This document shows, in pieces, positions 6,109 through 34,209 of a stretch of DNA of 44,904 nucleotides; the first letter of the stretch is position 1, and the number at the start of each line of letters is the position of its first letter. The notes under the pieces are model-generated. The model saw only the letters and a program-made list of their open reading frames with translations. It was not told the DNA's origin and made no database searches. Position numbers and translations under genes: made by a program. Origin of the DNA: a bacterium (GTDB taxonomy: Bacteria > Bacillota > Clostridia > UBA1381); NCBI GenBank assembly GCA_030536655.1, contig JAUNPN010000008.1, positions 1-44,904 on the forward strand. The letters are read 5' to 3'.

Positions 6109-9100
6109 ATGAGAAATTCAAAAAGAATGCTGTCAGCTCTTACGGCTTTTGCTATGACAGCATCGGCGTTCTCTGGAATGTGCATTTCAGCAAGTGCTGC
6201 TGAAGGAGTAAATACAATTACTCCGATAGCTGATACTTATATTGATACTGCGGATGCCACAAGCCATGCGGATGCTACAGAACTCAGAGCTATGCAGACA
6301 ACAAAAGCGGCGCTTGTTAAGTTTGATGCAAGCCAGTATCTCGGCAAGACAATAACAAAGGCGGAATTAACTTTTAATATTGCCAGCCGTGCATATAATA
6401 CGGGCAGAAACCGTTGGGAAAGTTCGTCCATCGTACTTAGTACAGTTGATACAGCGTGGGAAGACTCGGCACTGCCGGAAGCGTATACTATTTCCGGCAG
6501 CGGTAACATAAGTAATGCTCAGATATGGTCAGACAATGACAGTGCAACACCTTCGGACGGAATTCCTCCGTATTCGTCAAAAACATTTGATGTTACAGAA
6601 GCCTTAAAAGCTGATGAAGATGGAATCATTGCTTTTGAAATCGCTACAGGTACAGGTCGTGAACAGGCGATAGCTTCAATGGAGGACACGGAAAATGCTC
6701 CGACTCTTACAATTACAACTACTGATGCTGCGCAGGTAAGCTACAGTCTTAAGGCTGCAGAGGGTGAAAAGGACTTAGGCGTTGTCGTTGCAAGCGGTGA
6801 AGCAACTGCGGGTTCAACTGTTACAGTGTCAGGTATTCCAAAGTATGTACAGAGTGAAGGTGCATATTATGTACTTGATGATGAAAATGTTTCGGAATAC
6901 TCAAAGGAAGTGACTCTCGGAGAAGAAGCTTATGAGGGTACAGTATCGTACTCGCTTGATAATAGCGTTTTGTATGCTTCAGAGGGAGAGAAGCTTGAAA
7001 ATGCAACAGGAATAACAAATAAAGACGGAGCATCAGCAGGTGCTTACGGTGCGATTGCAGGCGGAAAGAAGGCATCAATCGGTATTTATTCTGCTGGAGA
7101 ATATGTTCTTAAGGCATACGTTAATGAAAGAGGAGACAGAGGTCTGTTTGTAAGAAATGCAGCGGATGCAGATAATACAACAAATGCTATTGCAAATCTT
7201 GATATTACTCGCGATTCCGCAGCAGGTGAGTATGAAGTCAGCTTTACATTGACAGATACGACAGAATTAGAACTTTCCGGCTATACAACAGATGGGGGAA
7301 GTGTAAATCAGTCGACATCAATTGACTATGTTGTTCTTACCGGAACAGGTAAAGCTGTTGAAGCAACACCGACACCTGATCCGAATGCTGAATACACTGC
7401 AACAATTACAGTAACAGGCAATGGTGCAGCGAAGTTTGTTACAGAAGTAACAGCAACAGACGCACCGACAGACGCCCCGGCAACGGATGCACCGATAACA
7501 GAAGCTTTAGCTTTTGTTGTGGATGCGAATACTCCGGTAGATGCTGATACTGTATATACAGATGATGATAATATTACAGTAAAGACTGTTTTTGCCGGAA
7601 AGATAGGCGGTACTACAGCTACTATTGCAGGAAGAGAATTTACTAATAATATTCAAATTCGTGTAGATGCAGCACCAGATTCAAGCACAGGATACACAGA
7701 AAAGGCAGATAATACACCGCTTCTGATAACAGCAAAGAAGAGCGGACAGTTTACAGTTTATTATAGACGTCAGGCAAGCAGCGGTTCATATGCAGCCGGT
7801 GATGGTAAGGATATTAAGCTTTCGTTAAAGAATGCTGATGGTACATATGCAGCCAACATCCCGGGTGTTATGACTATGGAGTCCTACACAGAAGATCAAG
7901 CTTATGGATATGGAACTCAGGTGTTTGATTTGACAGCAGGTAATGAGTATATCCTTTGGGCAAAAGGTACAACCGGTACATTATTTGGTTATGATTTTGC
8001 TCCGGAGGCAACAGCTTCATTATCGGACTATACAGTTGAGGAGCTTACAGACACAGTTACTGCAAAGGCGGGAGAAACAATTACTGTAAAGGTAACAGAG
8101 GGTACAGTTAACAGTATCACAACTGTTCCGGCAGCAGAGGTTACACCGGTAGAAGGCAAGGAAGGCTATTACACATTTGTAATGCCGGCAGCTGATACAG
8201 CTGTAACTGCTGACTTCACGGCAACAGCAACAGACGCACCGACAGATGCCCCGGCAACAGATGCGCCGACAGTGGCTCCGATAGATAACAAGGTATATAT
8301 TAATGAAAGCTTTGAGGGTTATCCGGCAGGAACAATCATCAAGTCGGCAGGAAACGATGTAGATGAAGCGTATCAGCCGGTAACATACGGAGATATTACA
8401 TATGCGGCAGGCCGCAGAAACAATGGTTCGATTAACAGTTCGCAGTCTTTCGGCGATTATGAGGGCAGCCAGGTTCTTGTTATCTCAGAAGATGGTTATG
8501 CAACAAACGGCAGAGGTGTATCATTCTCATTCAGCGGCGTTCCGGCAACTGCTCAGATTCCGGCAGGCCAGATTCTTGAGCTTAGCATGGATGTAACATC
8601 GACACAGTCATTTGAGCTTACAGGCTTTGGAACTGTTCCGGCAATCGGTACAGCAGGAGTTGCTTCACTTTCAGAAGCAGTTTCAAAGGCAGTACTTACA
8701 CCTGTAAAGTCGGCTGATACAGCAGTTGTTATTAAGGCTGTATATGACAACGGCAGATTGGTTTCAATGACAGCCGAGGATAAAACAAATGTAGTTGCAG
8801 GTACTCCGATTGAGGTTGAAGCAGCGGAGGGTACAAAGGTGATGCTCTGGAACAGCCTTAACGGTATGGAGCCGATTGCAGAAGCGGCAACAGCAGCAGT
8901 AGTATCAGAGCCGACAGACGCACCGACAGATACACCGGCGACAGACGCACCGACAGATGCACCGACAAATATACCGACATTGGATCCGGATGCGACAGAA
9001 GCTCCGGCTCCGGTAACAAGCTTACCGCATTTAAGAGCAATCATTGACCCGGCGAACGGCGCTCAGTACATTATTATAACTGATACAGAAGGAAACGTTC

Positions 9101-23667: not shown

Positions 23668-24891
23668 ATGACATACGAGGAATCACTTGAATATATACAT
23701 TCAATACCGAAATTCCGCAGACCGTTAGGCAATGCGCAGCTTGCAAGATTATTGGGTGCGGCAGGAAATCCGCAGGATAAGCTGAGTGTAATTCATATTG
23801 CCGGAACAAACGGCAAAGGCTCAACGGCAGCAATGCTCAGTGAAATTTTAAAAAGGCAGGGCTATAAAACGGGAATGTTCACTTCGCCGTTTATTGAAGT
23901 GTTTAATGAAAGAATACAGATAAACAAGGAGCTTATTCCGGACAGTGATCTTGCGGAGTATACGGAAAGGATTAAGCGGCTTATGGATGAAAATGAAGCG
24001 TACGTTTCTGAGTTCGCATTTATAACAGCTGTTGCGTTTTTGTATTTTTATGAAAAGGGCTGCGATTATGTCGTGCTTGAAACGGGAATGGGGGGACGGC
24101 TTGACGCTACGAATATTGTAAAGAAGCCTAAGCTGTGTATTCTCACGTCAATCAGCCTTGACCACATGCAGTTCCTGGGGGATACGATTGAGAAAATTGC
24201 GGAGGAAAAATGCGGAATAATAAAGCGCGGAGTGCCGGTGGTTTCATACGGTAACGAAGCGGTGAAGGGTATAATTGAAGCAGCGGCGGAGGAAAAAGGC
24301 TCGGAGCTTGTGTTCCCGTCAGAGAGTGTCATTGCAGACGGCGGTTTTGTATACGAGGGAAAGCAATACAAGCTTTCGCTTAAGGGCGGGTATCAGGTGA
24401 AAAATGCCGCGCTCGTTATTAAAGCCTGTGAAATGCTTAACAAGTATGGAATTGCTGTATCCGATAAAGCGGCAGCGGAAGGTTTGGAGCATACCACATG
24501 GCCGGTAAGGTATGAATTTATCAGGGATAATCTTGTAATTGATGGGGGACATAATATTGACGGAGTGCGTGAGCTTGTAAAGTCGCTTAAGGCGGACGGA
24601 AGAAAAATATATGCGGTTACGGCGATGATGTCGGATAAGAGCATGGAGGAATGTATTTCGGAAATAGCCTTATGCGCAGAACGGATTTACTGCACAGAAC
24701 TTGATATGCCGAGATGTGGAAGTGCGGAGGAGCTGGCGAGTATTGCGGAGAAGTCGGGAAAGACTGCCGTTGTTGTAAAAAATCCGGTTGATGCGGTAAA
24801 AGCTGCATTGGCAGAGGCGGACAGTGATACGCTTGTTGCGGTATGCGGCTCGCTTTATCTTGCGGGTGAAGTGAGAAAATATTATCGTTAA
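23668..24891 (+). CDS. folC: Bifunctional folylpolyglutamate/dihydrofolate synthase
   Basis: The 407-residue enzyme adds glutamate to dihydropteroate or folates with ATP in the cytoplasm. It has the Mur-ligase-type P-loop IAGTNGKGSTAAML, the TSPFIEVFNERIQIN segment, the DYVVLETGMGGRLDATNI motif, ISLDHMQFLGDTIEKIAEEK (metal and phosphate site), and the C-terminal domain with DGGHNIDGVREL and AVCGSLYLAGEVR. Length is usual for the family. GGAGAAGA precedes the ATG. It is separated from prfB by a terminator and a REP-like element, so it probably has its own promoter, which I could not place. Confidence 0.95.
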   Translation: MTYEESLEYIHSIPKFRRPLGNAQLARLLGAAGNPQDKLSVIHIAGTNGKGSTAAMLSEILKRQGYKTGMFTSPFIEVFNERIQINKELIPDSDLAEYTERIKRLMDENEAYVSEFAFITAVAFLYFYEKGCDYVVLETGMGGRLDATNIVKKPKLCILTSISLDHMQFLGDTIEKIAEEKCGIIKRGVPVVSYGNEAVKGIIEAAAEEKGSELVFPSESVIADGGFVYEGKQYKLSLKGGYQVKNAALVIKACEMLNKYGIAVSDKAAAEGLEHTTWPVRYEFIRDNLVIDGGHNIDGVRELVKSLKADGRKIYAVTAMMSDKSMEECISEIALCAERIYCTELDMPRCGSAEELASIAEKSGKTAVVVKNPVDAVKAALAEADSDTLVAVCGSLYLAGEVRKYYR

Positions 24892-26459: not shown

Positions 26460-26527
26460 CCCCAAATATGTAAAATTTTGAAAAAAAATTACATGCAATA
26501 AAAATCTGTAAAAAATTAAAAAAACAC

Positions 26528-26556
26528 TTGCATTTGCGTAAAAAGTGTGATATAAT
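26528..26556 (+). promoter_or_regulatory. Promoter of rpmE
   Basis: TTGCAT (26528-26533), 17 bases, TATAAT (26551-26556). It is divergent from the SLH leader promoter. Confidence 0.75.
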
Positions 26557-26604
26557 AGACTTCGGTGTGTGAAAAACGCTAATAAATATAAGGAGGAGTC
26601 GGTA

Positions 26605-26814
26605 GTGAAATCAGGAATTCATCCGGAATATAAGCAGACTACCATTACTTGTGCGTGCGGCAACGTCATTGCAACAGGTTCAACCAAGGAAAATATCCAG
26701 GTCGAAATTTGTTCAGCTTGTCACCCGTTCTATACAGGTAAGCAGAAGCTTGTTGACACAGGCGGTAGAATCGAGAAGTTTAACAGACGTTTCAACAGAG
26801 CAAAGAAGAACTAA
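26605..26814 (+). CDS. rpmE: 50S ribosomal protein L31, zinc-type
   Basis: The 69-residue product begins [20 protein letters not shown] from a GTG at 26605, directly after AAGGAGGAG; an in-frame GTG at 26569 would add 12 non-family residues. CACG and [10 protein letters not shown] supply the four zinc-binding Cys/His positions of the C+ form of L31, and [11 protein letters not shown] is the usual C-terminus. It belongs to the large subunit bridge region. rpsO follows after a 128-base structured leader without an obvious new promoter. Confidence 0.97.
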
Positions 26815-29853: not shown

Positions 29854-32800
29854 TTGAAAAAAATTATCAAAAGAATAGTTAGCTTAAATATTACAGCGGC
29901 AATGCTTGTAATGCTTATTCCCGTTATAGCAGGTGCGGGTATGAGTATACAGATAGGGCAGTATGTGCAGATGGGAACATACTACGGCGAGCCGATATTG
30001 TGGAGGTGCGTGGATATTGACGAAAACGGTCCGCTTATGCTGAGTGATAAGATTATCTGCATAAAGCCGTTTGATGCAGAGGGGGATAATACAAGCGGTT
30101 CGCACGGACGGGGATATGATGATGGTTGTTATCGAAAACAATACGGCTCAAATTACTGGGCGGACAGCAATATGAGGTGTTGGCTCAATTCAACTGCTTC
30201 TGCCGGAAATGTGGAATGGACGTGCGGAAATCCGCCGACAGAGGATAAGGTATGGAACGGATATAACGAATATGCGGACGAGGCAGGGTTCTTGACGAAT
30301 TTCTCTCAGGAAGAAAGAAATGCGGTAAAGGCCGTAACACAGAAATCACTGCTTGATGGCTACGAGCATGATTCGAACAATATAAATGAAAATTATCACA
30401 GATACGACTATCATATTTCTGGTGTTGTGCAGAACTATGACAGTGCTTATTCGGAAAATGTTACGGATAAAATGTTTCTGCTTGATGTAAAGCAGGTGAA
30501 TACGGTATATAATAACAGAAACATTCTCGGTTCTGATTATTATATCGGCGAGCCTACGGCGCAAGCTGTTGAAAATAGTGAATATAAGAATTCAGGTTTG
30601 CGAAATGGAAATAAATGGCATTATTGGCTCCGTTCTCCGTATTCCAACAACATTAGTGACGGTGCCCGTGTTGTCGACTCCGGCGGCCCTGTTCACTACA
30701 CTGATGCTGACTACACTCTCGTTGGTGTTCGTCCCGCTTTCTATCTAAATCTTCTATCTTCTTCCATAAAGTCCGGCACGGGTACCGAATCCAATCCATA
30801 CACAATAGACGGAGGGAGCGGCGGAAATACAAACAGCGGCACAAATTCCACATCTGCCGACGCACCCGTTATAACGTCCGCAAAGCTCACGCACAGCGGA
30901 AAGACATATGATATTTTTTCACAAGCCGTAACGATAGAAAAAGACAGTGAGATTATGGCTTCAATAGAAGCGGCGGTGAATGCAAACGGAAATAAGGATG
31001 TAAAGGTTTATATTACGCAGGGTGTAGGAAAAGAATTTGACATAACAAATGTATGCAAGGATTTTACACCGGGTAAAGATTTTTCGGCGGGCAAGCCTAT
31101 ATATATTATGGCGGTGGATAAGGAAACCGGAAAATCAACCTCAAGAAAAACTAAGCTAAAGATTTCATCTATGGCGAGCGGTAAAATCGGAAACCAGTCC
31201 GGAGTGGACGGACTGAATTTTAAGCTTGGACAGGATACGGGCTTTACGATTCCCGACAGCGTTCCCGTGTTTGGCGGAACAGAGATAAAATGGACGTTTG
31301 ATTTTATACCTATATCGGTAGAGTATGATAAAGAGGATAACAACAAACTCAATGTTGTTTTAGGAACTAATATTACAAAGAAAAAAGGCGATGACGGCAG
31401 AGAGTATTTTTCGGATTTTAATTTTAAAGAGTATAAAAAGAGCGTAAAAAAGGCTGCAAGCAAACAAAACAGATCGCTGAAACAGCTGCGCAACGACTTT
31501 AAAATGACGAAGGATATTAAAATGAATATGTTCGGCGGAAATGTACTTAAAGGCGGCTCAGGAAAAGGCGGAAGCAGCGTGGACGTTGCCGGCTATGCCG
31601 AAATGCACTATACCGAAAACGGCTGGCAGTTTGCGGAGGGGCAGCTTTGCGTCGATGTTGAGTTTACGTATAATTATCAGGGACAAATATTCATCTGGGT
31701 TGTTCCGCTGTATTATGAGTTCGGCGGAGGCGCAGGCGTTGGTTTTGAAGGCGACATGAAGGATATTAATCCGATATCATTTTCTCCCGAATTTGAAGCG
31801 TATATCACAGGTAAGGTTAAAGGCTCAATCGGCGGCGGTGTAGGTGTGGCTAAAGTGGCGACTGCCGGAGCAAGCGGAAAAGCTGCGCTGAATTTAAAGA
31901 AAAGTTTGAAGGATTCATATTTTAAAGCGGATGTAGACGGAAGCGCAAGTTTTAGTGTTAAGGTTTTCGGAAAAACTGTTGCGGAAAAGGAATTTGCAAA
32001 AGGAAACTTCCTTATTTATGAAACAGGCAATTCAAAGGGATTGATAAAAGACGGCGGTGTTTCCCTGAAGTCGGCAGGCGAAGATCTGTATAGTATTGAT
32101 ATAAACGCGGTTTACGAAAACGAAAGCCGCGCATATGCCGAAAGTCCGACCGCATGGCTTGGCAATGAAGAACAGCTTAGTCTGATGTCTGTTGATTACA
32201 CAAATAAGGATATACGCAGGCTTGCGGAAAATATATATACGGAATGTATGCCGCAGCTATGCAGTGTTGACGGTAAAACTGTTATGGTAATGCAGTGGGA
32301 TAATACCATGCGTGCCGATATTGACAGGACAATGCTTGTGTATTCAGTATATGATGAAGTGAACAAAACATGGTCGGAGCCTGAAGCAGTATATGATGAC
32401 GGAACAGCGGATTATTATCCGGAGTTTAAGGACGGTTATCTTGTATGGCAGAATGAAAAATCTCAGCTTACGGACGATATGACGTTAGAGCAGATTGCGG
32501 AATTAGGTGAGATATGTGTTTCAAAATGGAACGGCAGCGGCTTTGATGCACCGATTGCCTTGACGGACAATAATATGCTCGATACACAGCCGAGCGTAAC
32601 GAAAACATCAGACGGCGTACATATTATCTGGACAACAAACACAGCAAATGATATTATGGGTACATCAGGCACAAATACGGTTATGCAATCGTATTATGAC
32701 GGTACAGCGTGGAGCGCCGCAATGGAAATCAAGTCCGGACTTAATGCGGTAACCAACATAACATCGGGCGCGGTGAACGGGAATCTCTGCATTGCATATG

Positions 32801-34209
32801 TATGCGATGATGACAATGATTTGAATACAATAGATGACAGGGATATTGCAGTAATAGATAACGGTACGGAGCGCAGGCTCACGGACGATGATACTATGGA
32901 CAGCAATCCGATAATCGCAAACGATATGATATACTATTATCATGACGGAAATATCGAGTACAGAACGATTGACGGCGGTGATATGCAGACAGTTTTTGAA
33001 GAAGCAAAAGAAGGTCTTACGGACACATTCAAGGTAGGCGCAAATAACAGCGGCGACATTGTTATCTGGTGGACAAAAGCAAATGAGAATGGCTCCGAGG
33101 TGTATTCTTCATTATACAAAGACGGAGAATGGAGTGACGAAATCAAAGTTACGGATCTGGGCAGCAAAGCAAAATATCCGAATGGTATTCTGAACGATGA
33201 CGGAGTAATGCACATAGCGTTTAATAATGGCATAGAAGAAGATAACAGCATAATAAGGACGGATTTGTATACGATTTCTATAGTTCCGTCATATGATCTG
33301 GAGCTTGCCGACGCATACTTTGACGAGGATAAGATGACTGCATATGCAGTTGTGAAAAACAACGGAGAATTGAAGATACCGGGTTATACGATAGCCATTG
33401 ACGATGACGGAATAAATTCACAGAAAACAATCACGGAGCCATTGAAAGCCGGCGAAAGTGCAGAGGTTGAAATTGAATATAATAAGCCGTCAAATTTGTC
33501 GGCAAGAGCAATCGCCATGACTGTTGCGGCGGTAAGCGGAGAGGAATACAATACAGATAACAATTCTGCGGAGTTTGAAATCGGTCATGCGGATATTGAG
33601 GTCGGTAATGTGGCGGTAAACGATGACGAAACAACGGTTTCTGCCGATATTTCAAATGTCGGTTACGATAATGCGGAGAACGTCAAAGTGCAGCTTCGCG
33701 ATGAAAGAGCGGATGGTGCGGTAATTGAGGAAAAAACGATTAATCTTAACATTGGCTCAAAGGAAAGCGTTGAATTTTCGTTTGACAAGTCGGATATGCG
33801 TTTCTTTGATGCGTCAAAGCAGCTATATGTAACGGCGCAAATTAGTGGGGGCGAAGTATCGCTTGGTAATAATGACGGCTATGTGGTTATTATGAGTGAA
33901 AGCGGCGCGGCAGATTATGAAACCGAGATTTTGAGCTATAATGAGATTGACGGTAAGTATGTGATTAACTCAGTCGCAAGAAATAATACGGATACGGCTG
34001 TGTCGTGTGTTATGTACTCGGCGGTGTATTCCGAGGACGGTACATTAAAGGCATGCGGAACGGTTAAGGCAGATATTGACGCGGATAACGACACGGGTGT
34101 TGATATTATTGTTCCGTGTACGATTGCAACGGGAGATACGATTAAGACCTTTATGTGGACGGATAAACAAGAACCGCTCGCAAATGTGGGTGAATTGGTA
34201 ATTGAATAA
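29854..34209 (+). CDS. Giant secreted protein with DUF6273/C-type-lectin-like domain, propeller-like repeats and CARDB domains; candidate DGR target
   Basis: The 1451-residue product is read from TTG at 29854 after AAGGAGATGG; this start is needed for the signal peptide (KKIIKRIVSLNITAAMLVML, cleavage near AGA). Residues ~33-300 resemble DUF6273, a lectin-like fold (YVQMGTYYGEPILWRCVDID, MRCWLNST, FSQEERNAVK, YWLRSP at 257-262, GVRPAF at 291-296). Residues 263-297 between the last two motifs are encoded by 35 codons all ending in C or T, unlike the surroundings. A Gly/Ser/Thr linker follows, then a region of unknown fold (~340-780), repeats suggestive of a beta-propeller (~790-1140) and two CARDB-like domains (~1143-1345). 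No SLH or sorting signal is seen. It is monocistronic. A surface-displayed binding protein is likely; the ligand is unknown. Confidence 0.8.
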   Translation: MKKIIKRIVSLNITAAMLVMLIPVIAGAGMSIQIGQYVQMGTYYGEPILWRCVDIDENGPLMLSDKIICIKPFDAEGDNTSGSHGRGYDDGCYRKQYGSNYWADSNMRCWLNSTASAGNVEWTCGNPPTEDKVWNGYNEYADEAGFLTNFSQEERNAVKAVTQKSLLDGYEHDSNNINENYHRYDYHISGVVQNYDSAYSENVTDKMFLLDVKQVNTVYNNRNILGSDYYIGEPTAQAVENSEYKNSGLRNGNKWHYWLRSPYSNNISDGARVVDSGGPVHYTDADYTLVGVRPAFYLNLLSSSIKSGTGTESNPYTIDGGSGGNTNSGTNSTSADAPVITSAKLTHSGKTYDIFSQAVTIEKDSEIMASIEAAVNANGNKDVKVYITQGVGKEFDITNVCKDFTPGKDFSAGKPIYIMAVDKETGKSTSRKTKLKISSMASGKIGNQSGVDGLNFKLGQDTGFTIPDSVPVFGGTEIKWTFDFIPISVEYDKEDNNKLNVVLGTNITKKKGDDGREYFSDFNFKEYKKSVKKAASKQNRSLKQLRNDFKMTKDIKMNMFGGNVLKGGSGKGGSSVDVAGYAEMHYTENGWQFAEGQLCVDVEFTYNYQGQIFIWVVPLYYEFGGGAGVGFEGDMKDINPISFSPEFEAYITGKVKGSIGGGVGVAKVATAGASGKAALNLKKSLKDSYFKADVDGSASFSVKVFGKTVAEKEFAKGNFLIYETGNSKGLIKDGGVSLKSAGEDLYSIDINAVYENESRAYAESPTAWLGNEEQLSLMSVDYTNKDIRRLAENIYTECMPQLCSVDGKTVMVMQWDNTMRADIDRTMLVYSVYDEVNKTWSEPEAVYDDGTADYYPEFKDGYLVWQNEKSQLTDDMTLEQIAELGEICVSKWNGSGFDAPIALTDNNMLDTQPSVTKTSDGVHIIWTTNTANDIMGTSGTNTVMQSYYDGTAWSAAMEIKSGLNAVTNITSGAVNGNLCIAYVCDDDNDLNTIDDRDIAVIDNGTERRLTDDDTMDSNPIIANDMIYYYHDGNIEYRTIDGGDMQTVFEEAKEGLTDTFKVGANNSGDIVIWWTKANENGSEVYSSLYKDGEWSDEIKVTDLGSKAKYPNGILNDDGVMHIAFNNGIEEDNSIIRTDLYTISIVPSYDLELADAYFDEDKMTAYAVVKNNGELKIPGYTIAIDDDGINSQKTITEPLKAGESAEVEIEYNKPSNLSARAIAMTVAAVSGEEYNTDNNSAEFEIGHADIEVGNVAVNDDETTVSADISNVGYDNAENVKVQLRDERADGAVIEEKTINLNIGSKESVEFSFDKSDMRFFDASKQLYVTAQISGGEVSLGNNDGYVVIMSESGAADYETEILSYNEIDGKYVINSVARNNTDTAVSCVMYSAVYSEDGTLKACGTVKADIDADNDTGVDIIVPCTIATGDTIKTFMWTDKQEPLANVGELVIE
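30640..30744 (+). other. Candidate DGR variable region (35 consecutive NNY codons)
   Basis: All codons from Tyr263 to Tyr297 end in C or T, with AAC, GAC, TAC, CAC, TCC, GGC and similar forms that single or double changes at A positions of AAC/AAT codons would give. The stretch lies between WLRSP and the end of the lectin-like fold (GVRPAF at 291-296). Base composition on this strand switches from purine-rich to pyrimidine-rich here and back around 30800. Confidence 0.6.

Follow-up and report, generated by a model that had tools for sequence, protein, structure and literature searches.

The gene described here lies on contig C180, which belongs to a draft genome of 3.49 Mb in 266 contigs; this contig, 44,904 nucleotides in length, is the window that was analyzed. 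A reading frame with a TTG start is open over the full span of 29854-34209 and encodes a surface protein with an apparent signal peptide, an N-terminal DUF6273 head, and a long stalk with CARDB repeats. Pfam matched DUF6273 at residues 90-299 (E 2.4e-15) and also CARDB, a β-sandwich domain, in the stalk, together with a weak Fn3-like match. The gene has pnp on one side and valS on the other, with secA and prfB nearby. The features of the window are listed below, with reference to a diversity-generating retroelement (DGR) whose template repeat (TR) is found on another contig, C122.

29854..34209, + strand: very probable remote DGR target gene, surface protein of 1451 residues (ORF, translation; TTG start)
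29944..30807, + strand: head module, DUF6273, putatively C-type-lectin-like, 77% identical to that of the local target on C122 (alignment, model)
30625..30738, + strand: variable region VR1, ungapped against the TR at C122 24310-24423, with substitutions from 30640 to 30719
30721..30744, + strand: anchor without mutations and IMH-like end (GTTGGTGTTCGTCCCGCTTTCTAT) (alignment; genome pattern search)
30841..34206, + strand: stalk; in its full-length homologues from family members the N-terminal head is of a different kind

An earlier note on this DNA, made from the sequence alone, had drawn attention to a block of 35 consecutive codons ending in C or T (30640-30744), between WLRSP and GVRPAF of a DUF6273-type domain. 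The run is exactly as described and is the longest of its kind in the gene; 52% of the gene's codons end in C or T, and the expected number of 35-codon runs is 7e-8. In 17 other ORFs from the window, such runs reach at most 12 codons. The Pfam match confirms the domain context, and the block occupies the C-terminal end of the DUF6273 domain. Its left edge at 30640 is also exact, being the first adenine substitution, but identity to the template spans 30625-30738, and positions 30739-30744 are beyond the last base shared with it.

The genome was searched with 30600-30790, and two further strong matches were found, both on C122, at 24310-24427 and 26468-26621. The sole RVT_1 gene of the genome (C122 24852-25454) sits between them, ∼430 bp after the TR. 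The near-identical template that had been predicted to lie beside a DGR-type reverse transcriptase (RT) and an avd gene is therefore present, in a cassette with the following components.

C122 23795-24298: avd (DivGenRetAVD and bAvd matches; position upstream of the TR)
C122 about 24309-24423: template repeat (TR), ∼115 bp, near-identical to the window block
C122 24422-24598 (L010 8423-8599): probable spacer RNA (Rfam RT-14)
C122 24765-25682: RT (RVT_1; IGNMTSQ and YMDD motifs)
C122 25716-29891: local target gene, 1391-residue protein, carrying VR2

The Avd-like ORF (167 aa) matched DivGenRetAVD (E 1.9e-12) and bAvd (E 3.6e-9), both under curated cut-offs, and its position upstream of the TR is the same as in Bordetella phage BPP-1. 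Relatives of the RT all lie in TR/VR cassettes wherever the contig permits the test, and those in genomes G028 and G022 have the same avd-TR-RT layout and adenine-type TR/VR pairs. The cassette is flanked by spoIIAA/spoIIAB/sigF-like genes at one end and nadK-argR-recN-like genes at the other, as read from translations; in an empty-site comparison, the relatives examined at nadK have other genes upstream. Neither this locus nor that of the window gene looks prophage-like. Because the template is on a contig other than that of the window gene, the latter is a remote target, as the earlier note had proposed.

The TR and VR core consists of 114 ungapped bases, 34 of which are template adenines. 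Between the TR and VR1 there are 18 differences, and between the TR and VR2, in the local target, 10; all of these mismatches fall at TR adenines (18/18, P 5.5e-12; 10/10, chance 1.9e-6), as do all 21 of the differences between VR1 and VR2. This is the pattern predicted for a DGR, and neither VR shows the alternative one of mismatches scattered over all bases. Of the 16 Asn codons in the template, VR1 has 14 in altered form; its first and last adenine substitutions are at 30640 and 30719. Past 18 further common bases, VR1 and VR2 leave the TR identically (C to T and T to A), the TR itself ending in an IMH*-like version, CTCTTT; these two shared departures resemble the IMH and IMH* pair of DGRs. 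A search of the genome with the anchor pattern gave three sites, which are the TR, VR1, and VR2. Within 60 bp 3′ of the IMH-like end no stem-loop beyond short palindromes was found after either VR; in BPP-1 such a stem-loop is not strictly needed (PMC12875486).

A comparison of the two targets indicates that the remote gene has been rewritten. The flanks of the paralogous heads differ at all codon positions; of the codons that specify the same residue in both, 76 of 184 (41%) differ in the flanks versus 1 of 25 in the VR (Fisher P 1e-4), and this single codon differs at a TR adenine. Synonymous divergence between the targets has been erased inside the TR limits, which argues that the TR was copied into the distant gene after the two targets had separated. 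It is very probable, in our view, that a chromosomal DGR has acted on the window gene in trans and that the block is the variable region of this remote target. The two closest relatives have one VR each; the VR of G022 is on a contig other than that of the RT, but it may be local, since the G022 RT contig stops just past the RT. Among viral contigs, a search for near-identical strains yielded no exact anchor match, and the best RTs there were 55-56% identical.

We weighed this reading against other explanations of the block. The composition switch, taken alone, would fit a compositional accident or an imported GC-rich segment, the C/T-ending run being local codon bias; given the expected number of such runs, and since an RT gene has beside it a near-identical template from which the block differs at adenines alone, we assign this a negligible probability. 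That the heads are paralogous, with 77% protein identity, lends itself to plain gene conversion between VR1 and VR2, or to simple duplication of the head, with no mutagenic homing into VR1. Conversion, however, would make the VRs alike, whereas they differ at 21 sites, every one a TR adenine, and most of the 18 adenine changes in VR1 are not in VR2; drift after duplication would also strike bases other than adenine. An origin of this kind is very unlikely.

Another explanation concerns present activity rather than the identity of the block: VR1 may have been diversified by the C122 DGR formerly, the RT being now broken and both VRs frozen. The first ∼45 residues of the RT are encoded out of frame with the rest, the net offset from the family being one base (L010 about 8640-8770), and the same N-terminal part is in frame in nearly all of 80 relatives. 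The frameshift is either an assembly error, since draft assemblies can be wrong by a single base, or a recent loss; none of the non-adenine core sites has drifted from the TR in VR1 (0) or in VR2 (0), and hence any loss would be recent. A fossil target is conceivable but doubtful. Because of this lack of drift, the DGR is, judged from the sequence, still active or was so recently. GC skew is positive on the coding strand of the targets at both loci, which makes it probable that the VRs are oriented in the direction of fork movement, as BPP-1 prefers (PMC12875486).

VR1 corresponds to residues 258-295 of 1451, with more than 1000 codons following before the stop, and VR2 to residues 257-295 of 1391. 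C-terminal VRs have been described as near-universal, which was ascribed to homing signals outside the coding sequence (Roux and colleagues, PMC8144416); with VR1 and VR2 near the N-terminus, the homing signals here must be coding. The earlier note called this position unusual, and so it is when set against the C-terminal rule, but it is not unique. In gut-phage tentaclins, too, it is an N-terminal DUF6273 head that holds the VR (PMC10743442), and Faecalibacterium prophages have DGR targets with DUF6273 (PMC11792537). Furthermore, 15 loci from the RT search have a TR/VR pair with at least 100 residues after the VR, and DUF6273 was present in 6/6 of those scanned.

The system can be placed among known ones by these comparisons. 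It shares with the tentaclins (PMC10743442) a VR in an N-terminal DUF6273 head, but they are phage-encoded, whereas the genes here are found among housekeeping genes (pnp, valS, secA, and prfB in the case of the window gene), and the stalks here carry CARDB (window target) or SLH domains and WG repeats (local target). BPP-1, in which the order is avd-TR-spacer-brt and the target is mtd (layout per PMC12875486), has the same gene order, adenine-only TR/VR differences, IMH/IMH*-like ends, and a target that here is putatively C-type-lectin-like. In contrast to BPP-1, the cassette here is on a bacterial chromosome and has two targets, one on another contig, with the VR near the N-terminus, more than 1000 codons after it, and no stem-loop found past it. 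The DGR of Treponema denticola (PMC4891356) likewise has remote targets, its VR-bearing genes lying far from a single core cassette, although its accessory gene is of the HRDC type, not avd, and its target proteins are others. The retroelement thus belongs to a known kind; what stands out is that its target is far away and at an unusual end of the protein, although N-terminal VRs have precedents.

A structural model of the head was obtained (pLDDT 77.5, pTM 0.85), in which the VR (domain residues 228-265) comprises strands 240-244 and 249-254 and the surrounding loops. The model superposes on the DUF6273 domain of the Thomasclavelia ramosa IgA peptidase (9qa6; PMC12402451) with a TM score of 0.80, and in sequence the head shares 42% identity with the N-terminal domain in 9qa6 (profile E 1.3e-65). 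The two belong to the same domain family and share a fold, but the T. ramosa domain is the head of a peptidase; DUF6273 heads are therefore found on enzymes as well as on surface proteins varied by DGRs. The structure comparison of the head model retrieved no classical C-type lectin; the C-type-lectin assignment of DUF6273 rests on DALI in PMC10743442.

The two targets of the genome have the head in common, but not the stalk. Full-length homologues of the window stalk were found in G051 (67%), G054 (52%), G005 (50%), and G004 (45%), four genomes in which a search at E 1e-30 found no close RT. Read from sequence (L104-L107), the N-terminus of these homologues consists of leucine-rich BspA-like repeats in three of the four and is short in the other. 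Since the stalk homologues carry other heads, and the two targets share a head but not a stalk, the variable head was probably swapped onto an older stalk of ∼1120 residues that bore a leucine-rich-repeat-like head; the exchange would have run from that head to the variable one.

The 3′ end of the TR is where Rfam motif RT-14 (RF02921) starts, with a score of 59.5 bits (threshold, 48.1); G022 (43.0 bits) and G028 (35.7 bits) have it in the corresponding position, both scores being below the threshold. When 392 genomes of the class were searched, 15 RT-14 loci were obtained. Besides the C122 locus, DGR loci with the motif include L018 7265-7418, L019 5143-5330, and L208-L222. Nine of the 15, this genome included, are clear cases in which an Asn-codon-rich template runs into the start of RT-14, and four further loci have a similar stretch near that start; a related RT lies within 1.5 kb at 12 of the 15. 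BPP-1 has a folded spacer RNA between TR and brt, by which RT and Avd are recruited (PMC12875486). Because RT-14 starts at template 3′ ends, and the BPP-1 spacer lies between TR and brt, we suggest that this orphan motif probably forms the spacer in the template RNAs of several DGRs.

A mechanism can be proposed in which the template RNA, made up of the TR and a structured spacer, would be bound by RT and Avd and copied into cDNA with errors opposite adenines. Through pairing at the IMH-like anchor, the cDNA would then take the place of a homologous VR, in the window gene on the other contig as well as in the neighboring gene on C122. The changed Asn codons would diversify a single face of the N-terminal, putatively C-type-lectin-like head on its long surface stalk, with variation probably following changes in putative ligands, such as glycans or host or phage molecules; the head itself would probably have been grafted onto an older stalk with a former leucine-rich-repeat-like head. 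We favor, with moderate confidence, a wider reading for this Clostridia lineage: an exchangeable DUF6273 head has replaced leucine-rich-repeat-like heads, one DGR serves two targets, one of them in trans and with a fully coding anchor, and the RT-14 spacer would recruit RT and Avd.

In metagenome surveys, remote DGR targets are out of view, and VRs are described as C-terminal (PMC8144416). Here a remote target was spotted from raw sequence and then matched to its template, and its homing anchor lies within coding sequence, more than 1000 codons ahead of the stop. The comparison of stalks points to movement of variable heads among surface proteins, and if RT-14 is indeed part of DGR template RNA, templates could be found with an RNA model.

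A further DUF6273 paralogue, the third in the genome (C165:44374-45234, 54%), was considered and rejected as a target, as it has no TR-like region and no anchor. It encodes a protein of 352 aa with a signal peptide and a C-terminal membrane segment, and adjoins a DNA methyltransferase-like ORF (L013). Elsewhere, at L061 (2717-5020), L047, L056, and L063, targets have an N-terminal DUF6273 VR domain followed by a long C-terminal part, which in the L061 target includes AAA ATPase matches.
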